NCBI GenBank assembly: GCA_947625215.1
Contig: CANQNL010000005.1
Coordinates: 1 to 37,790, forward strand
Direction of reading: 5' to 3'
Length of the DNA stretch: 37,790 nt
From: an uncultured Bacilli bacterium
GTDB taxonomy: Bacteria > Bacillota_I > Bacilli_A > RF39 > UBA660
Below the pieces are notes generated by a model. The model was not told the origin of the DNA. It saw only the letters and a list, made by a program, of their open reading frames with translations, and ran no database searches. A program made the position numbers and the translations under genes. Of the stretch, positions 184 through 26,301 are shown piece after piece; the first letter of the stretch is position 1; each line of letters begins with the position of its first letter.

Positions 184-1584
184 ATGCGAAGAAGAAAAAG
201 AAAAAATACTATAATAATTGGAAGTTTGTGCGCTATAATAAGTGTAATGGTAGTAGCATATGGTGTTTATGGGAGTTTTCTAAAAGTTGATGGAACAACA
301 AGTATTTCATCAAATTTTAAAGTGTTAATTACAAATATAGAAAGTAAAGATAAAGTCGGAGAAGCTTCAGATGATGGAGATCCAAAATTTGAAAATTTAA
401 GTGCAACTTTCAAAACAAATTTAGTTTCCCCAGGTGATAGTATGACATACGAAATAACTGTAGCTAATCAGGGAAATGTCAATGCTGCTCTTGATAAAAT
501 AGATATAACTAAAAAAGTAAATAAAGCGATAAATGTAACATATGATGGAATAACTGCAGGGGATAAATTAGATGCTGGTACAGAGAAAAAATTTACGATA
601 AAAGTGGAATTTGATTCTAGTGTAACAACGCAGCCAAAAGATACCAATATAACTTTTGATATGAAATTAGAATATGTAGAGGAAGGACAAGATAATAATA
701 AGAGTACAACTACAACAGATGTATTAGTATTTGGTGGCCAGAGTATTCAATTAGTAACTTCTGGAGAGGGCTTATATGCCGATGAATATGAACCAGGTAG
801 ATATGTATATAAAGGAAAAAATCCTGATAATTACATAACATTTAATGGAGAAAATGCCGGTTGGAGGATAATTGGTATTGAAACTGATGGCACAATTAAG
901 ATAATGAGAGCAAGTACTATTGATAAGCAAATTTTTGATATAGCTGGGGCGAGGAAAACAGGATATTGTTCTAAGCAAGATGAATTATGGATAGGTTGTA
1001 ACGTCTGGGCAATAACACCAGAATATGATAATAATAGTGCATTGTCAAACGGTCTAAAAGGTGCTGTAGAAGCCGATTCTACTTTAAAAACTTATTTAAA
1101 TGGAAGCTACTATGAAGGATTAACATCAAATAAAACGGCAATTCAGAATCATCAATTTTACTATGGTCCGGCAACGTGGAATAATGAAAATTTATCTGAT
1201 CAAATAGCAAGCGAAAAAAAGTATTCAGCAAATTCATATGTGGGTATTATGCAAGCTAGTGATTATATTAGATCAAATGCAGATAGTGCTAGTTGTGGAA
1301 CATTAAAATTAGTAATAACAAATTCTTGTACTAGTACAAGCTATATGTCAGTAAGTGATAGTAGTCAGCAGTATTATACAATTACTCCAACATACAATAG
1401 TAGTGCTAATCCCCGAACTAATTCCAGTCATATGATTACCGTATATAATAGAGGTTTATATGATAATAATGGTTCACTTAATTCTTGTGGAGTTCTTCCT
1501 ACCATATATCTAAAATCAGATACTGAATTATCCGGAAAAGGAACTGGGGAAGACCCATTTACTATAACCAATTATATAGAATAA
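184..1584 (+). CDS. SipW/TasA-like secreted surface protein
   Basis: 466 residues. A basic N-terminus (MRRRKRKN) is followed by a hydrophobic segment at about residues 9-30 ending VVAYGVYGSF, the layout of SipW-dependent or CalY/TasA-type exported proteins. Residues about 45-165 look like an extracellular beta-sandwich domain with the phrase VANQGNVNAALDKI. The C-terminal half (from YEPGRYVYKG, about residue 200) resembles the repeat-rich domain of gut Firmicute surface proteins and ends CGVLPTIYLKSD...GTGEDPFTIT; it contains several Cys. AAAGGA precedes the ATG. A terminator follows, so it is the last gene of its unit. Family placement is by pattern recognition; a role as matrix or surface protein is inferred. 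Confidence 0.6.
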   Translation: MRRRKRKNTIIIGSLCAIISVMVVAYGVYGSFLKVDGTTSISSNFKVLITNIESKDKVGEASDDGDPKFENLSATFKTNLVSPGDSMTYEITVANQGNVNAALDKIDITKKVNKAINVTYDGITAGDKLDAGTEKKFTIKVEFDSSVTTQPKDTNITFDMKLEYVEEGQDNNKSTTTTDVLVFGGQSIQLVTSGEGLYADEYEPGRYVYKGKNPDNYITFNGENAGWRIIGIETDGTIKIMRASTIDKQIFDIAGARKTGYCSKQDELWIGCNVWAITPEYDNNSALSNGLKGAVEADSTLKTYLNGSYYEGLTSNKTAIQNHQFYYGPATWNNENLSDQIASEKKYSANSYVGIMQASDYIRSNADSASCGTLKLVITNSCTSTSYMSVSDSSQQYYTITPTYNSSANPRTNSSHMITVYNRGLYDNNGSLNSCGVLPTIYLKSDTELSGKGTGEDPFTITNYIE

Positions 1585-1595
1585 ATAAACTATGT

Positions 1596-1625
1596 AAAAA
1601 CCGAATTTCAAAATTTGGTTTTTTT
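1596..1625 (+). terminator. terminator of the surface-protein gene
   Basis: AAACCGAATTT and AAATTTGGTTT pair (one G-U) around a short loop and run into a T-tract, 12 bases after the stop codon. Confidence 0.7.
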
Positions 1626-1640
1626 GTAAAAAAATATGCT

Positions 1641-1680
1641 AAAAAAAGGGAAATAGGATATTAACGAAGTATATTAAATA
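1641..1680 (+). promoter_or_regulatory. promoter-like motif shared with the exporter operon
   Basis: An A-tract, GGGAAA, then TTAACGAAGTATATTAAA. The same arrangement (A-tract, GGAAAC, TAAACGAAGTATGATAAT) recurs at 16811-16850, directly before the ribosome-binding site of the C39 exporter gene. Spacing is identical in the two copies. Neither has a good TTGACA-type -35 box. It may be an alternative sigma or activator site; here the original downstream gene seems to be lost. Confidence 0.3.
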
Positions 1681-1765
1681 TGAAGTAGTTAGAAAAGAAA
1701 AAATATAAAATAAAAATGTTTATAAATGGTATATTTAGATAATAAATTAACGGTGTTAAAATACC

Positions 1766-1794
1766 TTGAATTTTACTGTAAGTTATATTATAAT
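1766..1794 (+). promoter_or_regulatory. sigma-A type promoter (or conserved remnant) before Rpn tail 1
   Basis: TTGAAT, a 17-base spacer and a perfect TATAAT. The whole block from -35 to -10 is nearly identical to 7166-7194 in front of the second Rpn tail (two differences), so it is either a carried promoter or a conserved bit of the ancestral gene. Confidence 0.5.
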
Positions 1795-2149
1795 GAACAT
1801 GGAAGAGAAGATGATTACAGCATTAACAGCAAAAAGTTTTAAAGAATTAAACAAAATTTTAAAAGAAATCTTAAATAAAGAAGAATTAGAAAGATTCATA
1901 GGGGAAGTGGTTAAGATGAGTAAAGACACATTTAGTATTCACGAATGGGAAAAAGAGAAAACAGAAGAATTACTAAAATATGAAGAGTATCTTTATGGAA
2001 AAAATGAAGGACTTAAAGAAGGTAAAAATGTTGGAATTAAAGAAAAAAGTATTGAAATAGCTAAAAATATGCTTAATAAAAAAATGGATATTAAAATTAT
2101 TTCAGAAATGACTGGTTTAAGTAAAGAAGAAATAGAAAACTTAAAATAG
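1793..2149 (+). CDS. C-terminal fragment of Rpn/PD-(D/E)XK transposase
   Basis: Open frame of about 118 residues; the usable start may be ATG 1811, after GGAAGAG, because a TATAAT lies at 1789-1794. The sequence ITALTAKSFKELNKILKEIL, a Glu/Lys-rich stretch with GxxxGxxxG spacing (GKNEGLKEGKNVGIKEK), and the tail MLNKKMDIKIISEMTGLSKEEI are the standard C-terminal half of Rpn (YhgA-like) recombination-promoting nucleases, which are normally about 280-300 residues. The nuclease core is missing, so this is a decayed mobile gene and probably inactive. A second, shorter tail lies at 7256-7423. Confidence 0.65.
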   Translation: MNMEEKMITALTAKSFKELNKILKEILNKEELERFIGEVVKMSKDTFSIHEWEKEKTEELLKYEEYLYGKNEGLKEGKNVGIKEKSIEIAKNMLNKKMDIKIISEMTGLSKEEIENLK

Positions 2150-2182
2150 GTTTTCTATTTATTTGCATAAAAATTATAAATA

Positions 2183-2212
2183 AAAATACCCAGTTAAAGC
2201 TGGATATTTTTT
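2183..2212. terminator. bidirectional terminator
   Basis: AAAATA-CCAG and CTGG-TATTTT pair with one internal mismatch, with A- and T-tracts on both sides. It serves the Rpn tail on the plus strand and the U32 gene on the minus strand, overlapping the U32 stop codon. Confidence 0.65.
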
Positions 2213-4344
2213 AATAAGCTAATTATTTGTTCTTTAGTTTCATCAAATAGTTCTAATCTAATACTATTTAAGCCAAGATCTTTTAATTCATTTAAATAAT
2301 GAATCAAGTTAATATTATGGTGATGCATTATATGGGTTTTATTATTTTTAATAATAATTGGAAATAATTCATTTTGTCTATTTTGAAGATAATTGCCATT
2401 ATCTGAAATGATATGATTTATAACCATTAATTCTAACTTGCCATATATAATTAACTCAACATTATTATTAACTTTTAAAATGTCTTTTATTTGGTCAATA
2501 GTAAGTTCTGGTGATAGAGTAATTTGTTTAATATTACAATTTTCTAAAAAATTTACACTATAACTATTTACAACATTTAAGAAATAATCAGAATTACATA
2601 TATTATTTTTAGGATATTTATTAATGCTACCTAGTTCAGTTAATAATAATTTCTCATTTTTGAAATCTTGAAAACCATAGGCTGTTCTATCAGTTTTAAA
2701 ATAGACATTATGAGTTTTATATTTTAAATATAAATTATAATTATCAGTATAAATATTATTTACTTTGCCTAGTACCGTTTTTAACTGCTCCTCATTATTT
2801 ACACTAACATTAATAGATAGTGGCCTACTTATTTTATTTATAGCTGGTTTTATTTTTATTTTATTTAAATTTCTTTTAATACTAGTTTTTTTATTAATAA
2901 GTTTTTCTGTTAAAATTCTTCGAAGTTCATTTAACTCTTTTAGAGAAATAAATACATTATTATCCATATCAATATCTATTTTATTTATTATAAAAGGAGT
3001 ATTACCTAATTTAGATAATTGTTTTATAATATTTTCTTTAGTAATTGGGGAAGTAATAGCGGATTTTACAATACTTCCTTTTACATTAATTTTGTTTTTA
3101 TTATCATATATGGTTATCGATAATGGTTTATTTAAATGCATTGTAACTGAAAAATTAATTGTTAATTTCTTTTTTGGATAGCCTCTTAAAGATTCTAAAA
3201 GCTTATAATCTGTAGTTTTTAAAACTGTTTCATTAGTTTTAATATTTAGTTTATTGTCAATAAAAACAATATCACCTTTTTTAGCTTCATTAATTAATAA
3301 ACCTTTAGAATTATATAACTTATTTACTACTAGTCCCTTATTACTATCTTTAAATCTAATACCATCATTTTGCGCGAGATCATCAGTTAATTTAATCATA
3401 ATTCTTTTATTTGTTTTAATAACTTTTCCAATTTCAACGCCGATATGATTTGGGCTGATAGGATTCATTAAGTCTTCATTTTTCTTTTCAAATAAATGTC
3501 CCTCAGTAAACTGGCGATTAAATAGTTTTTCTAAGTCTCTAGTTTCCATTTTTGTTTGCTTATTATCAATAAGTTCACGGTACATTTTAGTTACAAAATA
3601 AACATATTCAGGGCTTTTCATTCTTCCTTCAATTTTTAGGCTTTGAACATTACTATTTAAAATTTTATTTATTTGTTTAGTTGTATTTAATTCTTTTGGA
3701 CTAAGAAGATAATTGCCTTCAGTTTTTACTGGCTTACCATTTTTAATTAAAGTATATGGTAAGCGGCAAGGTCCTGCACATTTTCCTCTATTGCCACTTC
3801 TACCACCATTTAAACTGCTAAATAAACAACTACCACTATAACAGATACATAAAGCGCCGTGAATAAATATCTCTTTATCGATTTGTGTTTTTAAATTATT
3901 AATTTGTTTTAACGATAATTCTCTAGCTAAGACAACCCTTTTAACGCCTAAATCTTTATATAATTTTAAAACCTCATCATTACAATTATTAGTTTGCGTA
4001 GAAGCGTGAATTTCTAAATCAGGGATAATCTTTCTTATTAAACTAATCATTCCAATATCTTGCATTATAACAGCATCTACACCATTTAAATAAAGAAATT
4101 TAAGATAATCTATGAAATCATCTATTTCACGTTCATAAATAATAGTATTGGCAGTTATATAAACTTTCACATCGTATGTATGAGCATATTTAATAGCTTT
4201 AATTAATTCTTCGTTAGTAAAATTATCCGCAAAATTTCGCGCACCATAATTTTTACCACCGATATATACCGCATCTGCTCCTGCGTGGATAGCGGCTTTT
4301 AAAGCCTCCATATTACCAGCGGGGCTTAATAATTCTGGTTTCAT
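2194..4344 (-). CDS. peptidase U32 family protein, RlhA/YdcP-like
   Basis: 716 residues beginning MKPELLSPAGNMEAL, the classic U32 opening (a TIM-barrel with a conserved ELLAPAG-type strand). The family's cysteine cluster is present: C166, C168, C173, then NRGKCAGPCRLPY with C189 and C193. A long C-terminal part beyond residue 400 matches the collagenase-like DUF3656 architecture of RlhA (YdcP), which in E. coli is needed for hydroxylation of 23S rRNA C2501; relatives TrhP/YrrO act on tRNA U34. The names 'protease' and 'collagenase' are historical. GGTGAT lies just before the start, with a TATAAT-like box at 4360-4365 on this strand. Monocistronic and divergent from the next gene. Target RNA is inferred, not shown. 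Confidence 0.85.
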   Translation of the reverse strand: MKPELLSPAGNMEALKAAIHAGADAVYIGGKNYGARNFADNFTNEELIKAIKYAHTYDVKVYITANTIIYEREIDDFIDYLKFLYLNGVDAVIMQDIGMISLIRKIIPDLEIHASTQTNNCNDEVLKLYKDLGVKRVVLARELSLKQINNLKTQIDKEIFIHGALCICYSGSCLFSSLNGGRSGNRGKCAGPCRLPYTLIKNGKPVKTEGNYLLSPKELNTTKQINKILNSNVQSLKIEGRMKSPEYVYFVTKMYRELIDNKQTKMETRDLEKLFNRQFTEGHLFEKKNEDLMNPISPNHIGVEIGKVIKTNKRIMIKLTDDLAQNDGIRFKDSNKGLVVNKLYNSKGLLINEAKKGDIVFIDNKLNIKTNETVLKTTDYKLLESLRGYPKKKLTINFSVTMHLNKPLSITIYDNKNKINVKGSIVKSAITSPITKENIIKQLSKLGNTPFIINKIDIDMDNNVFISLKELNELRRILTEKLINKKTSIKRNLNKIKIKPAINKISRPLSINVSVNNEEQLKTVLGKVNNIYTDNYNLYLKYKTHNVYFKTDRTAYGFQDFKNEKLLLTELGSINKYPKNNICNSDYFLNVVNSYSVNFLENCNIKQITLSPELTIDQIKDILKVNNNVELIIYGKLELMVINHIISDNGNYLQNRQNELFPIIIKNNKTHIMHHHNINLIHYLNELKDLGLNSIRLELFDETKEQIISLLKNIQL

Positions 4345-5929: not shown

Positions 5930-5979
5930 TAGTTTTTATGAAAAAATAATTACATATAATTATTTTGAGGTGTGATGTA

Positions 5980-6672
5980 ATGAAAGAATTTTTAAAAAAA
6001 CTTTTTAAGGACTTCTATATTTTAACGGCTTCTTATTCAAATAATGTCTTCCCAGATCCTCTTACTAAAGAAGAAGAGGAAGAGTATATAAAAAAAGCTA
6101 ATATGGGTGATAAAGAGGCAAGGAGTAAACTTATTGAACATAACTTAAGATTAGTTGCTCATATTGTTAAAAAATATGATCATAGAAAAGAAGACGTTGA
6201 TGATTTAATAAGTATCGGAACAATAGGTCTTATAAAAGGTGTAGATAGTTATTCATTTAAACATAAAACTAGACTTACTACATACTGCGCTAGATGTATA
6301 GAAAATGAAATCTTAATGCATTTTCGTAGCGATAAAAAAAATAGTAAAAATATAAGTATCGATGAAAGTGTCGGATTCGATAAAGAAGGAAATGTTATAA
6401 CATTTTTAGATATTTTAAAAACTCCAAAGCCTGACTTTGCATTAGATATACATAAACAAGATAATTTAAAACTATTAAAAAAATATTTTGATGTCCTTAC
6501 TGATCGCGAAAAAGAAATAATAATTAAAAGGTATGGATTAAATGGCAATGATGAGGTTACACAAAAAGAAATCGCTAAAGAATTTGGAATATCGCGAAGT
6601 TATGTTTCTAGAATAGAAAAACGCGCATTAACTAAAATATTACGAGAGTTTATAAAACATAATAAGCAATAG
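5980..6672 (+). CDS. sigK: SigK-like sporulation sigma factor
   Basis: 230 residues from ATG 5980; the TTG at 5965 is ignored because the Shine-Dalgarno GAGGTG (5967-5972) lies after it. Region 2 contains LIEHNLRLVAHIVKKYD, DVDDLISIGTIGLIKGVDSY and YCARCIENEILMHFRS, nearly the SigE/SigK signature; region 4 carries LTDREKEIIIKRYGL and the helix-turn-helix TQKEIAKEFGISRSYVSRIEKRAL. The start MKEFLKKLFKDFYILTASYSNNVFPDPL lines up with B. subtilis pro-SigK up to the NNAFPQPL block, so a short membrane-associated pro-peptide may remain. The gene is in one piece (no skin element). SigK directs late mother-cell transcription. SigE or SigG is a less likely assignment, since the NNxFPxPL motif is SigK-like. 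Confidence 0.8.
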   Translation: MKEFLKKLFKDFYILTASYSNNVFPDPLTKEEEEEYIKKANMGDKEARSKLIEHNLRLVAHIVKKYDHRKEDVDDLISIGTIGLIKGVDSYSFKHKTRLTTYCARCIENEILMHFRSDKKNSKNISIDESVGFDKEGNVITFLDILKTPKPDFALDIHKQDNLKLLKKYFDVLTDREKEIIIKRYGLNGNDEVTQKEIAKEFGISRSYVSRIEKRALTKILREFIKHNKQ

Positions 6673-15603: not shown

Positions 15604-15649
15604 GTTATCGTTTATTAGGCAAATGAATATACTAAATTAGGTGAAGGTT

Positions 15650-15994
15650 ATGAATACAAAAGATAAATTTAAAGATTTTGTAAGGCAAAATCCTGTTTTG
15701 TTAAAACACGTAAAAGATGGTAATATGACCTGGCAAAAATTTTATGAGATTTATGATATTTATGGTGAAGATGAAAATGCTTGGAAAGAATATTTAACAG
15801 TAGCAGCTCCAGCCGCCGCCGCGACATCATTTGATTTTATGGGATTTATAAAAAGCCTCGATTTAGATAGTATTCAAAATGGTGTTAATAGTGTTCAAAG
15901 AGTACTAGGTTTACTTCAAGATATATCATCAAATAAAAAAGAAAATACTGAAACCAGAAGACCTAGACCACTTTATAAACATTTTGAAGATTAA
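15650..15994 (+). CDS. ylbD: YlbD-like putative spore coat protein
   Basis: 114 residues from ATG 15650; the GTG at 15641 is part of the AGGTGAAGG ribosome site. The N-terminus (FKDFVRQNPVLLKHVKDGNMTWQKFYE, then a GEDENAWKEY stretch) follows the YlbD_coat pattern: F-x-x-F-x-x-K-HP, a stretch of basic residues, TWQ-x-x-Y-E. The middle is Ala-rich and the C-terminus basic. It overlaps ylbE by one base (TAATG), and rsmD follows, reproducing the order of B. subtilis ylbD, ylbE, ylbH with ylbF and ylbG missing. In B. subtilis it is a coat-associated protein of unknown mechanism. Confidence 0.75.
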   Translation: MNTKDKFKDFVRQNPVLLKHVKDGNMTWQKFYEIYDIYGEDENAWKEYLTVAAPAAAATSFDFMGFIKSLDLDSIQNGVNSVQRVLGLLQDISSNKKENTETRRPRPLYKHFED

Positions 15995-16215
15995 TGAGTT
16001 TAGAACTACAATATAAAATAAAAGAAAATGAATACTATTTAAGGCATTTAAGACAAAATTCTAATTGGTATAAATTATTAAATAGAAATCCTAATAATTT
16101 TAAAGCCTTTGAAGATGAGGTTAAAGAAGTTTATAAATTAACTAAAGCTGATAAAATATCCAAAACCCTTACAACTATCGAAATGTTAGAAAAAGTACTA
16201 TCAACTTTAAGATAA
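15994..16215 (+). CDS. ylbE: YlbE-like protein
   Basis: 73 residues. YLRHLRQNSNWYKLLNRNPN is the YlbE-like signature (family: L-x-FLR-x-x-P-x-WYR-x-L-x-R-x-P), followed by a second helix ending ISKTLTTIEMLEKVLSTL. Its ATG shares the final A of the ylbD stop, so translation is coupled. Function unknown in any species; Bacilli-restricted as far as I know. Confidence 0.75.
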   Translation: MSLELQYKIKENEYYLRHLRQNSNWYKLLNRNPNNFKAFEDEVKEVYKLTKADKISKTLTTIEMLEKVLSTLR

Positions 16216-16243: not shown

Positions 16244-16762
16244 ATGCGGGTTATAAGTGGAAAATATAAGGGAAGAAAACTACAAGGTTTTGATATTGAT
16301 GGAACCAGACCAACAATGGATAGAGTAAAAGAATCACTATTTGGAATGATTCAAAATAATATTCCAGATAGTGTATGTTTAGATTTATTTGCTGGAAGTG
16401 GAGCTTTAGGAATTGAAGCTTTAAGTATGGGCGCAAAAGAATGTTATTTTATTGATAATAATCCTGTGGCTATTAAAACTTTAAAAGAAAATACTTCTAG
16501 TATAAATGGTGCCATTATTATAAATACTGATTATAAAAAGTATTTAAAAGAAACTAAAAATAAATTTGATATTATTTTTTTAGACCCACCTTACCAAAAT
16601 AAACTTTTAAATAAAGCTCTTAAATTTATTGAAGAGTTTGACTTACTAAATGATAGCGGAATAGTAATATGTGAGTATGTTACAGAAAAACCTATAACTA
16701 CATTAACCTTAATTAAAGATAAAAAATATGGTACAAAATATATAAAAGTATATCAAAAGTAG
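16244..16762 (+). CDS. rsmD: 16S rRNA (guanine(966)-N(2))-methyltransferase
   Basis: 172 residues from ATG 16244, preceded by TTGGTGATT; the ATG at 16226 lies before that site and is rejected. Starts MRVISGKYKGRKL, has TRPTMDRVKESLF, the SAM-binding loop CLDLFAGSGALGIEALSMGA and the catalytic motif FLDPPY, all diagnostic of RsmD (YlbH). It methylates G966 of the small-subunit rRNA. In many Bacilli coaD follows, but here a terminator and the exporter cassette follow instead. Confidence 0.92.
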   Translation: MRVISGKYKGRKLQGFDIDGTRPTMDRVKESLFGMIQNNIPDSVCLDLFAGSGALGIEALSMGAKECYFIDNNPVAIKTLKENTSSINGAIIINTDYKKYLKETKNKFDIIFLDPPYQNKLLNKALKFIEEFDLLNDSGIVICEYVTEKPITTLTLIKDKKYGTKYIKVYQK

Positions 16763-16784
16763 CTCTAAATGAGCTATTTTTTTT
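16760..16784 (+). terminator. terminator of ylbD-ylbE-rsmD
   Basis: TAGCTC-TAAAT-GAGCTA followed by eight T's, overlapping the rsmD stop. Confidence 0.75.
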
Positions 16785-16810: not shown

Positions 16811-16850
16811 AAAAAAAGGAAACCCAGGTATAAACGAAGTATGATAATAA
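16811..16850 (+). promoter_or_regulatory. unusual promoter-like motif of the exporter/peptide operon
   Basis: A-tract, GGAAAC, then TAAACGAAGTATGATAAT, ending just before ATAGGGAGG. It matches 1641-1680 in about 29 of 40 positions with no gaps. GATAAT could serve as a -10 but no -35 lies at 16-18 bases, so an activator or alternative sigma factor may be needed. Confidence 0.4.
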
Positions 16851-16863
16851 TAGGGAGGTAAAA

Positions 16864-18912
16864 ATGATGTTTAAAAAATATCCATTTGTTAAACAAAATG
16901 GTATTAAAGAATGTGCTGTAGCAGCTGTTTTAATGATTGTTAAATACTATAATGGTAATATTAGTATGACTAAGTTAAGTGAAATGCTTAAAGTTACCCG
17001 CAAAGGTGTAACAGCATATCATATCGTTCAAACTTTAAAAGCGTTGGGATTTAATGCTTATGGTATTAAAGAAAAACAGTTAAAGCAGACTAAAGTTCCT
17101 TTTATTGCAAATGTAATATTAAATGATTCCTACAAGCATTATATTGTTGTATATGAGGTAACTGATAATAAAGTCTTAATAGCTGATCCCGCTGATAAGT
17201 TAAAACAAATAAGTATTTATAATTTTTATAAAATATGGACAGGCATAAATATTATGATGTATCCTGAAAGACCAATTTTACGAATTAAAAACAATAACTA
17301 TCTAAAAATATTTAAAAATTTATTTACCCCTAATTTAAAAAAGATTATCGTTATTGCTGTTTTGTCATTAGTTATGACCATATCAGGAATTATTGGTTCA
17401 TTCTTTTTTCAGATTCTAATTGACAACATAAATAGTAGAGTCAATATAAAGCTATTATGTTTTGTTTTCTTCGCGTTATTAATAATTAAAGTTATGTCTA
17501 GTTATTTTAGAAATAAAATGCTTATAAAATTTAATACAATTACCGATAGTTATTTAACTAATATGACATTCAAACAAATTATTTTACTTCCTTATCTTTA
17601 CTATCATAATCATACAACTGGCGAAGTAATTAGTAAAACTAATGATTTATCACATCTTAGAGATACTTTAAGTAAAATCTTACTGACCATTTTTATCGAT
17701 TTACCACTTACTATTTTTTCTGGTATTTTACTTTTTAATATAAATAAATTATTATTTATGTTAATTATTGGAATGCTACTGGGCTATATTTTAATTATTT
17801 TAATCTTTAGGAAAAAAATAAATAATTATATCGATAAGACACTTAAAGAAAAAGCCTTAGTCCATTCCTATATGACTGAAACTATAGGTAGTTTTGAAAC
17901 AATTAAAGGTATAAGTATCGAAAAACAAACAAATCAGCGATTTAAAGAAAAGTATGATAACTTAATTAAAGCAAAATTAAAACTTGATAATCTAGCTAAT
18001 TTACAGTTATTTATTAAAGATTCTGTAAACAATATTGGACAAGCATTAATTTTAATAGTAGGCATTTGGTTAATCAAAGAAAAAGTAATGTCGTTAAGTT
18101 TGTTTATCACCTATAATATCCTTATGAGTTTATTTCTAGAGCCGATGCGTAATATAATTGATTTGGATTTTGATATTAAAAAAACTTTTCAGGTAATAAA
18201 TAGGGTCTTTGATTTATATGAGATAAGTGAAAAAAAGACTTTTGAAAAAATCAAAACGATAAAATTGGAAAATTTAAATTTTAGTTTTGATGATATTAAA
18301 TATACTCTGAAAAATATAAATTTAATTATTAATAAAGGTGATAAAATTTTAATAAGTGGTGAAAGTGGTAGTGGTAAGAGTACTTTAGTTAAACTAATTA
18401 AAGGCTATTATCAAAAGTATGAAGGGAAATTACTCGTTAATGGAAAACCCGTAAATAAAATTAATTCAAAAATAAATTACGTCTCTCAAAAAGAAAATAT
18501 TTTTACAGGTACAATTAATGATAATTTAAAACTTAAAAATAGTAGAGATTTAAATAGAATAAAAAGGATGTGCTACATAAACGAAATAGCTTTAAGAGAG
18601 GACTTAGGTTATAATACACTATTAGAAGAAGATGGTTTTAATATTTCAGGTGGGCAAAAGCAAAGAATTGCTTTAGCCAGAGCCCTTCAAGATTTTGATT
18701 TATTAATTATTGATGAGGGTTTTAATGCCTTAAATACTAATTTAGAAAGAAAAATAATTAAAAACTTATTTAAGTATTATAAAGATAAGACGATAATTGT
18801 TATTTCTCATAGATTAGATAATTTAGATTTATTTAATAGATTTATAAAGCTTGAAAATGGAATTATAACCTTGGACACTAAAGCTGAGAAGGGAGAAACG
18901 CTATGCATATGA
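16864..18912 (+). CDS. C39-peptidase ABC exporter for double-glycine peptides
   Basis: 682 residues; GGGAGG precedes ATGATG. Residues 1-135 are a C39 Cys protease: Q11 (oxyanion), C17 in KQNGIKECAVAA, H92 in KHYIVV and D108 in LIADPA, all present. Then come about six membrane helices (residues 155-430) and a nucleotide-binding domain with Walker A GESGSGKST (499-507), signature SGGQKQR (from 595), Walker B LLIIDEG and the switch ISHR. Such PCAT proteins cut leaders after Gly-Gly and export the core. Two matching substrates follow at once: the first overlaps its 3' end and both carry TGG leaders. Length is typical (about 700). The fusion makes a separate accessory protein unnecessary. Confidence 0.92.
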   Translation: MMFKKYPFVKQNGIKECAVAAVLMIVKYYNGNISMTKLSEMLKVTRKGVTAYHIVQTLKALGFNAYGIKEKQLKQTKVPFIANVILNDSYKHYIVVYEVTDNKVLIADPADKLKQISIYNFYKIWTGINIMMYPERPILRIKNNNYLKIFKNLFTPNLKKIIVIAVLSLVMTISGIIGSFFFQILIDNINSRVNIKLLCFVFFALLIIKVMSSYFRNKMLIKFNTITDSYLTNMTFKQIILLPYLYYHNHTTGEVISKTNDLSHLRDTLSKILLTIFIDLPLTIFSGILLFNINKLLFMLIIGMLLGYILIILIFRKKINNYIDKTLKEKALVHSYMTETIGSFETIKGISIEKQTNQRFKEKYDNLIKAKLKLDNLANLQLFIKDSVNNIGQALILIVGIWLIKEKVMSLSLFITYNILMSLFLEPMRNIIDLDFDIKKTFQVINRVFDLYEISEKKTFEKIKTIKLENLNFSFDDIKYTLKNINLIINKGDKILISGESGSGKSTLVKLIKGYYQKYEGKLLVNGKPVNKINSKINYVSQKENIFTGTINDNLKLKNSRDLNRIKRMCYINEIALREDLGYNTLLEEDGFNISGGQKQRIALARALQDFDLLIIDEGFNALNTNLERKIIKNLFKYYKDKTIIVISHRLDNLDLFNRFIKLENGIITLDTKAEKGETLCI

Positions 18913-19043
18913 CAAAAGAAGAACTACTAACTGTAACTGGAGGAGGTGTAAGTGTTGGTTTAATTGCAGGCATAGGCGCTGCTATAACATTTATTATTGG
19001 GATTTTAGATGGTTATCTTCGCCCACAGAGGTGTAATGAATGA
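18903..19043 (+). CDS. double-glycine leader peptide 1 (bacteriocin-like precursor)
   Basis: 46 residues, start ATG 18903 seven bases after AAGGGAG and inside the last codons of the exporter; ATG 18909 is an alternative. The leader MHMTKEELLTVTGG (14 residues) has the acidic KEEL helix and a Gly-Gly end. The predicted 32-residue core is hydrophobic and Gly-rich (Gly at core 1, 5, 9, 11, 19) with two overlapping GxxxG motifs, then a polar tail DGYLRPQRCNE with one Cys. This is the look of a membrane-active class II bacteriocin or one half of a two-peptide class IIb pair. No modification enzyme is near. Activity is inferred. Confidence 0.8.
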   Translation: MHMTKEELLTVTGGGVSVGLIAGIGAAITFIIGILDGYLRPQRCNE

Positions 19044-19210
19044 TATTAAGTAAAGAAGAACTTTTAAATGTTACTGGCGGGGACTTTACGATTACGGCTA
19101 CATTTTTAAATGCCTTATCAAGAGGCGTTTCAACAATTGCTGATTTAGGTAGAAGCCTGGGCAGTGCTATTAGAAGAATAGTTAGTGGTTCAATATGCCC
19201 AATTTCATAA
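19040..19210 (+). CDS. double-glycine leader peptide 2 (bacteriocin-like precursor)
   Basis: 56 residues. ATG 19040 overlaps the stop of peptide 1 (ATGA), with AGAGGTG upstream, so translation is coupled and probably equimolar. Leader MILSKEELLNVTGG is 14 residues and almost the same as in peptide 1. The 42-residue core starts DFTITATFLN and contains an amphipathic, cationic stretch with GxxxG (GRSLG) and two Arg pairs or singles (GRSL, IRRIV), ending SGSICPIS with its only Cys near the C-terminus. Different cores behind matched leaders fit a two-component peptide. No immunity gene follows; a terminator does. Confidence 0.8.
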   Translation: MILSKEELLNVTGGDFTITATFLNALSRGVSTIADLGRSLGSAIRRIVSGSICPIS

Positions 19211-19233
19211 AACAGGAATTATTCCTGTTTTTC
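19209..19233 (+). terminator. terminator of the exporter/peptide operon
   Basis: AACAGGAA-TTA-TTCCTGTT followed by a T-run, overlapping the stop of peptide 2. Confidence 0.75.
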
Positions 19234-19235
19234 TG

Positions 19236-19264
19236 TTGAAAAATAGGGAAATCGGTGTTATAAT
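19236..19264 (+). promoter_or_regulatory. rpsU promoter
   Basis: TTGAAA, 17-base spacer, perfect TATAAT; 31 bases before the start codon. Confidence 0.75.
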
Positions 19265-20069: not shown

Positions 20070-20090
20070 CAAAAGTAAGATGGTGATTTG

Positions 20091-21701
20091 ATGAAAACAA
20101 TAATAAAAAATAATTGGAAAGCGGCGGTATTTTCGCTAATATTTGCTTTATGTTTATGCCTTCAAAAGTCAATAATCGATTATAATAGTGAACTAGGTTT
20201 TTTAACTCATATTAATATTTTAAAAACTATTATGACCTTTATTATTTTGTTTATTTTGATTTTTATTGGATCTAGTTTAATAATAAAATATATTTGTAAA
20301 TTAAAATTTGCCGAAATAGAATATTCTAAAAAAGATATAAAAAAAATATTTATTATTTCCTTTATATCAATGCTTATTATATGGAGTATTTGTTTTATAA
20401 CATTTTTTCCTGGAGCCAGTTTATCAGATACATATTTTCAATTTAGCCAGCCTGTTAAATCAGCGGCACAACATCCAATAGGATATAATCTTTTACTTCA
20501 CTTTTTTATAGTTACTATTGGGTTTAATTTATTGCATAATGTGGTTATTGGATGGGCTTTATTAAGCGTTTTTCAGATGCTTTTTATTGCAGCGAGTATT
20601 TCCTTTGCCTTATGTTTTTTGGCTAAAAGGAAAATATCAAAGGTAGTAATAGCGATTTTAATACTTATTTATTCATTAATGCCAATATATGCTATTTATT
20701 CAATATATGCGATCAAAGATGTTCTATATTCCGTGCTATTATTATATTTAGTTTTATTAATTATTAAGCTCGTAGAATCAAATGGTGAGATGCTTAGAGA
20801 TAAATTTTTTATTACCTTTTATATAATTATTTTTATTTTAATGTTTATAACTAGAAATAATACTATTGTAATATATTTGATAACTACTATAGCAATTACA
20901 ATTAAATATTATAAAAAATGGAATATTTTAATAACTTTATTATTGATTCCGTTAGTATTTAACTGTTTATTAAATACGTTTTTAGATAAAAAATATGGTG
21001 TTGAACATTATTTTCAAGAAAGCGTCAGTATTCCACTTCAACAAATATCATCGACAGTTCATATCGATGGTAATTTAAATAAAAATGAGAAGGAATATAT
21101 TAATTCATTGTTAGAATTAGATATAATGAGAGAAAATTATCATCCAGGGTTGATTGATACAATTAAATGGAATACCAATTTTAACCGTGATTATTTACAG
21201 AAAACTAAAATGAAATTTTTAAGGACTTGGGGTTCTATAATGATAAAAAATTTCGATACTTATATTGAAAGTCATATGTTACAAACATATTGCTTTTGGA
21301 CACTAAATAGTAAAGCTTATGTTCCAAATATGTATCATAAAAGTTCTCGTAATGATTATAAAATGCCATATATAAATCAAATAAAGGAATATTATAATTT
21401 TTCATATATAAATTTATTACCACAAAAAATTCAAAAACCTTTAGAAAAATTCTATCAAAAATATGTCAGCTTAATTTCTGAAGGCCTATGTTTTTGGTTA
21501 TTTATATTTTCGATGTTAGTGCTAAGCTATAAACGTCGTAATGTTTTATTAATTGGAATTCCATTATTTTCTTTGTGGTTAAGTATTATGTTAGCGACAC
21601 CTATTAGTGGTTCTCTTAGATATGTATTTCCATTTTTCATTGTTTTACCAATATTAATAGGGTATATTTTAAATGTTAAAATTGATGATAGTAGGAGATA
21701 G
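20091..21701 (+). CDS. polytopic membrane protein, GT-C-like (DUF6020 type)
   Basis: 536 residues from ATG 20091 (the preceding TTG is part of the ribosome-site region). About eleven hydrophobic helices. The extracytoplasmic loop after the third or fourth helix contains FFPGASLSDTYFQFSQPVKSAAQHPIG; an acidic residue in this first large loop is typical of GT-C glycosyltransferases, and the wording P-G-x-x-x-x-D with the later HP-x-x-Y is shared with DUF6020-type membrane proteins. A large soluble insert (about 290-440) precedes the last helices. It may transfer a sugar or lipid-linked donor in the envelope. Both the family and function are tentative. It is followed after 65 bases by the flavodoxin gene. 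Confidence 0.65.
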   Translation: MKTIIKNNWKAAVFSLIFALCLCLQKSIIDYNSELGFLTHINILKTIMTFIILFILIFIGSSLIIKYICKLKFAEIEYSKKDIKKIFIISFISMLIIWSICFITFFPGASLSDTYFQFSQPVKSAAQHPIGYNLLLHFFIVTIGFNLLHNVVIGWALLSVFQMLFIAASISFALCFLAKRKISKVVIAILILIYSLMPIYAIYSIYAIKDVLYSVLLLYLVLLIIKLVESNGEMLRDKFFITFYIIIFILMFITRNNTIVIYLITTIAITIKYYKKWNILITLLLIPLVFNCLLNTFLDKKYGVEHYFQESVSIPLQQISSTVHIDGNLNKNEKEYINSLLELDIMRENYHPGLIDTIKWNTNFNRDYLQKTKMKFLRTWGSIMIKNFDTYIESHMLQTYCFWTLNSKAYVPNMYHKSSRNDYKMPYINQIKEYYNFSYINLLPQKIQKPLEKFYQKYVSLISEGLCFWLFIFSMLVLSYKRRNVLLIGIPLFSLWLSIMLATPISGSLRYVFPFFIVLPILIGYILNVKIDDSRR

Positions 21702-24621: not shown

Positions 24622-26301
24622 ATGAAATATATAAAAAATGGACTAACGGTTATTAAGAATAATTATAAAAAAATTTTATTAGGATTTTTAATTATAATCA
24701 TTGCTTTTGTTTTAGTTGAAACTTTAGACATTTTAAATAAGCAAAAGTTAAAAGCAAATTTAAAAAATGAGTCTTGGCTTCGTAATAATGTTGCTATTAC
24801 CAAAGATGAATCATTAGGTGATAACATCTATAAAGTAATAAAAAATGAAAATATAACTATTTATAATGTTAAATTTCAAAAAATAGTTGATGAAAAAATT
24901 GACTTATTTACTAGAGATAATGATGATATTATTGTGATTTATAATCCTTATGGTACTAATAATTTAAGTGTTAATGTTTATTTTAAAGATGAAGATATAA
25001 AAGAAGTTAAATATAAAATAAAAACAGATAAACAAAATATCAAAGATTTTGAAAGAACTTTAGTAAATAACGATAATTCATCTTATGAATTAATTGGACT
25101 ATTCCCTGGATATAATAATGAAGTCATCGTTACTAAAACTTTAAATGATGGTAGTAGGAAAGATTATACATTTAATGTTGATTTAAGTAATATTAAAACA
25201 TATGCCGAGACTAAACTTAAAACCGAAAATGGCACAAGTAAAGAAAGTTTAACCGATGGGTTATATTCAATGCTTGGTAATGATTCCGATGATAAAGATT
25301 ATCTAGCTTTATATGATAATGATGGCGTTATCAGAAGTGAAATTCCAATTATCGGTTACAGGGCTCACGCCATATTATTTAATGAAGATAAGATGTATTT
25401 TAGTATTTCACAAACTAAAATAGCCGAAATGAATAATTTAGGTAGGATTACAAAAATTTATAAAACAGGAGATTATCAGTTACATCACGATTATACTTTT
25501 GATAAAGATGGAAATTTATTAGTCTTAGCCAACAACACCAAAAAAGAAACTGAAGAAGATACGATTATAAAAATCGATAAAAAAACTGGTAAAGTGACTG
25601 AACTTTTAGATTTTGAAGATATATTTAAAGATTATGTAGATACATGCACGTTAGATACTAAATCGGCAAGAGATGAAGGCGAAGATGGTTTAGACTGGCT
25701 TCACTTAAATTCGATTGAATATGTTGATGGTGATGTTATTGTTAGTAGTAGGGAAACATCTTCAATTATAAAAATTTCAAATATTGAAGATAAACCAAAG
25801 CTAGAATATATTTTAAGTAATGATAAATTTTGGCAAGAAACTGATTTTGAAGATTATGTATATCAAAAGAAAGGTGATTTCCTTATTCACGCAGGACAAC
25901 ATTCAGTTAGATATAGTAAGATTAATGAAGATGAATACTATTTAACTTTCTTCAATAATAATTACGGAGTATCTAATAGTCAGCCAGACTTTGATTATAG
26001 TACTTTAGGTATTAAGAATAATAATCCATTTAAAGGAGACAAATCTTATTACTATGTATATAAAGTAAGTGAAAAAGACAAAACCTTTGAATTAGTTTCT
26101 AGTTTTGATTTAGAATATTCAGGGATTGTCAGCAGCGTTCAAAATATCGGTGATAATATTGTTACTGATTCTGGTACGGCTGGAGTATTCGCCGAATATG
26201 ATAAAGACTATAATTTAATTAGAAAATATAAAGCTAAAATGAATAAATATATGGTATATAGAGTACTTAAATATGATTTTAATAATTTTTGGTTTAAATA
26301 A
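24622..26301 (+). CDS. membrane-anchored arylsulfate sulfotransferase
   Basis: 559 residues after AAGGAGG. N-terminal anchor at about residues 18-38, then a beta-sandwich domain (about 60-200) and a propeller of repeated strands. Arylsulfotransferase (AssT, PF05935) landmarks: YRAHAILFNEDKMYFS, YQLHHDYTFDKDGNLL, LDWLHLNSIEYVDGDVIVSSRETSSII (the His and Arg of the sulfate pocket) and FLIHAGQHSVRY with H423/H427, one of which should be the sulfated His. The enzyme moves sulfate between phenols without PAPS, outside the membrane. It stands alone; no DsbA/DsbB-like partner is visible. Substrate unknown. Confidence 0.85.
   Translation: MKYIKNGLTVIKNNYKKILLGFLIIIIAFVLVETLDILNKQKLKANLKNESWLRNNVAITKDESLGDNIYKVIKNENITIYNVKFQKIVDEKIDLFTRDNDDIIVIYNPYGTNNLSVNVYFKDEDIKEVKYKIKTDKQNIKDFERTLVNNDNSSYELIGLFPGYNNEVIVTKTLNDGSRKDYTFNVDLSNIKTYAETKLKTENGTSKESLTDGLYSMLGNDSDDKDYLALYDNDGVIRSEIPIIGYRAHAILFNEDKMYFSISQTKIAEMNNLGRITKIYKTGDYQLHHDYTFDKDGNLLVLANNTKKETEEDTIIKIDKKTGKVTELLDFEDIFKDYVDTCTLDTKSARDEGEDGLDWLHLNSIEYVDGDVIVSSRETSSIIKISNIEDKPKLEYILSNDKFWQETDFEDYVYQKKGDFLIHAGQHSVRYSKINEDEYYLTFFNNNYGVSNSQPDFDYSTLGIKNNNPFKGDKSYYYVYKVSEKDKTFELVSSFDLEYSGIVSSVQNIGDNIVTDSGTAGVFAEYDKDYNLIRKYKAKMNKYMVYRVLKYDFNNFWFK

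Follow-up and report, generated by a model that had tools for sequence, protein, structure and literature searches.

A core exporter locus with two double-glycine peptides and a sigma-H-like promoter in a family of uncultured Bacilli

The two-peptide bacteriocin CibAB of S. pneumoniae is induced in competence, is accompanied by the immunity protein CibC and belongs to the ComX late genes (PMC5295010). A locus of similar design was analysed in a genome of an uncultured Bacilli bacterium (RF39; UBA660), on a stretch of 37,790 nucleotides that is referred to as the window. It encodes an exporter and the paired peptides A and B. In relatives, a small third gene, pepC, is an immunity candidate, control of the competence type (ComX/sigma-H family) is suggested and secretion through a C39 exporter is expected, all of which likens the locus to CibAB and CibC. 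Unlike CibAB, the exporter is encoded in the same operon, both peptides carry a C-terminal cysteine and the system belongs to the core genes of an entire family. pepC differs from CibC in that it resembles a membrane-anchored copy of the C-terminal half of B, and the window's genus does not have it.

Class IIb bacteriocins such as lactococcin G and lactobin A/cerein 7B share with the window cassette the GG leaders, helical cores of 30-45 aa with GxxxG motifs, the adjacent genes and the dedicated C39 ABC exporter. Cores without a match to any library family, a single conserved cysteine at each C-terminus, near-universal and vertical occurrence and the lack of an adjacent immunity gene in the window's genus set the cassette apart from them. 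Transporters of the PCAT1/ComA type have the domain order and catalytic residues of the exporter found here, which differs from them in forming a separate clade that is confined to the family and in having two fixed cargo peptides. The passages covered from the literature on RF39/Tenericutes genomes and on bacteriocin mining contained no mention of the system.

Exporter and peptide genes

The exporter comprised 682 aa, in which the domain search placed C39, ABC-TMD and ABC-ATPase domains (Table 1). Its best PDB matches were PCAT1 (4ry2) and ComA (8hf4), both aligned end to end. Cys17, His and Asp of the protease triad were in register with PCAT1 in the alignment, which bears out the full catalytic triad proposed in the earlier note, and the ATPase motifs were Walker A GESGSGKST, the signature ISGGQKQ and IIDE. 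With the C39 triad, TMD and NBD in a single chain, the protein has the make-up of the PCAT class. The score against TIGR01193 was 378.8 bits, under the cut-off of 523.85. Plasmid-borne bacteriocin exporters showed at most 33% identity to the window exporter among the matches listed. The same ceiling held for the listed matches from the plasmid and phage collections together, so that no close mobile source was apparent. An anti-phage function of the cassette was considered and rejected, as anti-phage libraries gave generic ATPase matches to the exporter only.

Table 1. Features of the cassette and its borders, in window positions
Feature	Position	Strand	Basis
Inverted repeat with T-run after rsmD, terminator-like	16760..16784	+	sequence; stem also in minus-strand scan
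Sigma-H-like promoter AGGAAA-N16-GTATGATA, directly 5' of exporter SD	16817..16846	+	
C39-peptidase ABC exporter, predicted leader cleavage and export	16864..18912	+	PF03412, PF00664, PF00005
pepA, peptide A precursor, 46 aa; leader MHMTKEELLTVTGG, core GVSVGLIAGIGAAITFIIGILDGYLRPQRCNE	18903..19043	+	
pepB, peptide B precursor, 56 aa; leader MILSKEELLNVTGG, core DFTITATFLNALSRGVSTIADLGRSLGSAIRRIVSGSICPIS	19040..19210	+	
Palindrome AACAGGAATTATTCCTGTT, then T-rich tract, terminator-like cassette end	19211..19234	+	sequence; too A/T-rich for scan
Sigma-A type promoter TTGAAA-17-TATAAT of rpsU	19236..19264	+	11/12 matches, extended -10

The three reading frames and their overlaps were recovered exactly as first described. 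The last 10 nt of the exporter gene are shared with the start of pepA, the junction of pepA and pepB is an ATGA overlap and an SD-like sequence precedes each peptide gene. Both adjacent genes encode GG-leader peptides with short cores, and no modification enzyme adjoins them, as the earlier note had also stated. Its description of the leaders as near-identical was too strong: they are similar, with 10/14 identical positions, and both end in TGG as claimed. They share the motif EELLxVTGG and resemble the leader of the PCAT1 substrate CtA, ELTDEELMEMTGG. Predicted mature A, of 32 aa, forms a single hydrophobic helix, contains small-xxx-small motifs and ends in DGYLRPxxC, and predicted mature B, of 42 aa, is a cationic amphipathic helix. 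GxxxG was present in each core as proposed, at G15-G19, G19-G23 and G33-G37 of A and at G37-G41 of B. Across loci, it was found in 83/83 B cores and 73/83 A cores, and small-xxx-G in 82/83 of the latter. G(R/K)xxG, RR and the C-terminal cysteine of the B core were invariant across 23 aligned sequences. At 81/82 loci, both peptides had a cysteine within the last eight residues. Most mature peptides have one cysteine each, which makes an A-B disulfide an obvious possibility, and the two single C-terminal cysteines are possibly joined in this way.

Peptide A matched TIGR03949, the NCBIfam class IIb model of lactobin A/cerein 7B, with 23.3 bits (cut-off 21.5). The cores of A and B alone matched no bacteriocin family of Pfam or NCBIfam, and the match of A is therefore leader-driven. 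Leader-aware family scans likewise matched known families with the leader half of both peptides only, and profile searches of the PDB with both peptides gave chance matches except for the A leader against the PCAT1 substrate. The idea of a class IIb candidate thus stands as far as the paired GG leaders, the GxxxG motifs and the score of A are concerned and does not extend to the cores, which match no class IIb family. Additional A- or B-like peptide genes were present inside the cassette at three loci (L137, L148 and L150), representing local duplications. In one genus (L095/L012), a gene for a SAM-methyltransferase-like protein of 227 aa was inserted between pepA and pepB.

Distribution and inheritance in the family

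A profile of peptide B had matches in 222/243 genomes and 141/148 genera of the window's family. In a sample of 395 genomes of the class, it matched 51/54 family members; the 341 genomes outside the family gave no full-length match and six weak matches of leader length. Of the 44 genomes of the genus, nearly all had the exporter, as did many other genera of the family. Both peptide ORFs adjoined it in nearly all of 30 genus and family loci, and the content and order of the cassette were fixed in 58 further loci. Its usual site is between ylbD-ylbE-rsmD and rpsU-yqeY. Twenty family genomes were without B, five of them with an exporter-like match. Three of these matches were at contig ends or partial, one was a generic ABC transporter and, in the fifth genome, a full exporter was accompanied by divergent ORFs that resemble A and B. 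Exporter and peptides are thus gained and lost jointly. The co-conservation called for in the earlier note was found: relatives that keep the exporter keep A and B, and where the peptides are absent, so is the exporter, or else the contig is broken.

Inheritance was followed with an exporter tree of 27 loci, compared with concatenated RsmD, YqeY, YlbD and YlbE. Exporter and housekeeping neighbours were correlated (Mantel r 0.77; 0/2000 permutations as high), and 10/13 well-supported splits were common to both trees. The three conflicting splits mean that some exchange of the exporter is possible; its inheritance is mostly vertical. Within the genus, pS of A and B was saturated at 0.67-0.68 and pN was 0.32-0.33, giving a pN/pS of about 0.47-0.48. 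The constraint on the peptides equals that on the exporter, and within the genus the cores are no less constrained than the leaders. Saturated synonymous and limited nonsynonymous change reflects purifying selection and not the random substitutions that would have spoken against the peptide frames; together with the recurrence beside the exporter, it makes the A and B ORFs real far beyond chance. Bacteriocins are usually patchy accessory genes. Exporter, A and B form a near-universal core locus of the family and not a sporadic bacteriocin.

A single-TM accessory protein of 114-172 aa was encoded between exporter and A in 39/60 family loci. Its model had a pLDDT of 90, and a fold search with it gave no significant PDB match; adaptor domains of MacA/MexA were among the weakly similar entries. 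pepC overlapped the end of pepB in 31/60 family loci (L094, L096, L108, L109, L130 and others). Its product has no GG leader; a lysine-rich start is followed by a TM helix and GxxxGTxIR...C. It had no Pfam match and aligned with the C-terminal half of B (profile alignment, hhalign 90.6%). As a mimic of this half of B, pepC may be a decoy-type immunity protein that protects the producer. It tended to co-occur with the accessory protein (Fisher p 3e-5 over 60 family loci, kinship ignored). Neither of them, nor any adjacent immunity gene, was found in the window and its genus. The accessory protein is ancestral, and accessory protein and pepC were lost in the window's genus. If pepC confers immunity, its absence there means that another protection is needed or that the target is absent from producers.

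The combination of C39 exporter and small peptides could also serve signalling. A and B would then be a secreted signal of the CSP or Blp kind, released by the exporter to trigger competence or another state. Exporters of the ComA/BlpA type process pheromones and the window exporter is close to ComA, conserved cores would suit a shared code and a LytTR regulator was present in 62/78 family genomes. This explanation is nevertheless very unlikely. Peptide signals normally diverge between species, and pheromones have 10-25 residues; the two cores are long and one is a membrane-spanning helix, which makes a plain pheromone unlikely. At least 10 genomes of 90% or more completeness carried the cassette and lacked the LytTR regulator. 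Pheromone sensing through LytTR was rejected for the same reason and because the LytTR gene of the window genome lies in a separate locus beside AgrB-like and histidine kinase genes. That locus (L163, contig C17 of genome G000, positions 1301-4116), with an AgrB-like gene, an AgrC-like kinase and a LytTR regulator nearby, is probably a separate agr quorum-sensing locus.

Several other genes of the window were recorded. At 15641-16215 (+), ylbD-ylbE (YlbD coat-protein family and YlbE-like) are directly 5' of rsmD, and the pair is conserved with the cassette across genera. A gene at 5965-6672 (+) encodes a sigma factor of the SigK/SigE type, which scored 302 bits against the SigK subfamily NF004471, above the cut-off, so that sporulation sigma factors are present in the window genome. 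A DUF6020 membrane protein is encoded after yqeY at 20088-21701 (+), where it was not seen in the relatives examined. An arylsulfotransferase (PF05935) at 24622-26301 (+) is uncommon in so reduced a genome.

Promoter motif and competence genes

The terminator-like repeat after rsmD would isolate the cassette from that gene, and the sigma-A promoter of rpsU contrasts with the promoter in front of the exporter. In relatives, the element AGGAAW-N16-GTATRWTA was conserved upstream of the exporter SD. Its form AGGAA...G[TA]AT agrees with the sigma-H consensus. The similarity of the -10 element to TATGAT of sigma-A counts against this assignment. One fixed motif expression was used for all upstream counts, with shuffled sequences as control. 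The motif was present upstream of 18/26 exporters of the genus (shuffled mean 0.48), 16/57 exporters of other genera (1.05) and 9/15 comEA genes (0.26). Upstream of the control genes rsmD, ylbD, rpsU and yqeY, it was found in 0/102 cases. Genomes of the genus held between 0 and 22 exact copies, with controls near zero.

The motif preceded comEA-comEC in many relatives and dnaG (dnaG-rpoD) in four genomes. The sigma-H targets of Listeria include dnaG-rpoD, comEABC and comG (PMC4754846), and comE and comG of S. aureus are driven by SigH (PMC3486894). By motif resemblance, the cassette thus shares a promoter with dnaG-rpoD and the comE operon, as a sigma-H regulon member would. A gene for a SigH-like factor was present in 41/44 genomes. 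Further genes behind the motif were M23 peptidases and members of the DUF1016, ORF6N and PD-(D/E)XK families; like comEA and dnaG behind the exact sites, these were named from their translated starts. That many unrelated genes follow the motif in some genomes counts against a specific link to competence. The genome with 22 exact sites (G022, L223-L242) had the motif before many genes of the DUF1016, ORF6N, PD-(D/E)XK and MutH/MvaI-like kinds, so that the regulon in this genus is larger than expected and rich in nucleases. In the window genome, which is 92% complete, neither sigH nor comEC was detected and the promoter motif was intact. The coupling to competence may have been lost in this organism, or sigH and comEC may be located in the missing 8%. 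A 0.6-Mb genome (G141) kept sigH, comEC and the cassette, and no other sigma-70 region-2 gene was detected in it.

comEC was missing from 7/16 cassette-negative genomes and from 7/76 other genomes (Fisher p 0.002, kinship ignored). At a completeness of at least 89%, the values were 5/9 and 6/71 (p 0.002, kinship ignored). The link between cassette and comEC is statistical, since 7/16 cassette-negative genomes had an apparently whole comEC. These results bear on two further explanations. One is a constitutive or starvation-induced class IIb-like bacteriocin that acts on other species and is unlinked to DNA uptake. The paired GG peptides, the GxxxG motifs and the class IIb HMM match agree with it, sigma-H also governs general transition-state genes, and the motif stands before non-competence genes as well. 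It is unlikely in view of the promoter common to comEA-comEC, the partial co-loss with comEC, the absence of a classical adjacent immunity gene from the window's genus and the near-universal, mostly vertical occurrence at one chromosomal site, in which the system differs from most bacteriocins.

In the other explanation, A and B are structural parts of the cell's own envelope or DNA-uptake apparatus, for instance an A-B channel joined by a disulfide or a pilus-gate element, and would not be a weapon. The core distribution, strong conservation and near-invariant cysteines of both peptides would fit such a role, as would the promoter type in common with comEA-comEC, the partial co-loss with comEC and the position of comEC directly 5' of the exporter gene in a single genome (L003/L268). 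No DNA-uptake machine is known to use C39-exported peptides. The seven cassette-negative genomes with comEC retained and a design that agrees with class IIb bacteriocins make the structural role quite unlikely.

Proposed role of the cassette

With a probability of roughly one half, the cassette is a core class IIb-like two-peptide system that is coupled to sigma-H and competence and works like CibAB fratricide. The sigma-H or competence state would switch on exporter, A and B from the promoter type common to comEA-comEC. The exporter would cut the leaders off the two GG precursors at the predicted site and export mature A and B. Both peptides would pair helix to helix as one unit in the target membrane and permeabilise it. 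Targets would be neighbours or siblings outside the sigma-H/competence state, from which DNA and nutrients would be released. In genera that have it, membrane-anchored pepC would protect the producers. Control and architecture are suggestive of fratricide of the CibABC type, and we infer the killing of non-competent kin by analogy. The near-universal conservation of the peptides counts against their use as a weapon, as weapons tend to be patchy. A competence-linked pair of exported membrane peptides, inherited as core equipment by the whole family and possibly disulfide-linked, that serves either kin killing for DNA uptake or as a part of uptake apparatus or envelope, with pepC as a decoy, is a possible but rather unlikely account.

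The earlier note had proposed a two-peptide bacteriocin or signal and had not seen the family-wide, vertically inherited core locus, the accessory protein and third gene, the cysteines or the sigma-H-like promoter. A two-peptide system that is near-universal and mostly vertical in about 140 sampled genera, with the promoter type of DNA-uptake genes, would join competence to killing by peptides, or to uptake that peptides assist, throughout a very large group of uncultured bacteria that presumably live in the gut. The two short peptides and the candidate immunity protein would be ready reagents for work on interactions and DNA exchange of bacteria with reduced genomes.
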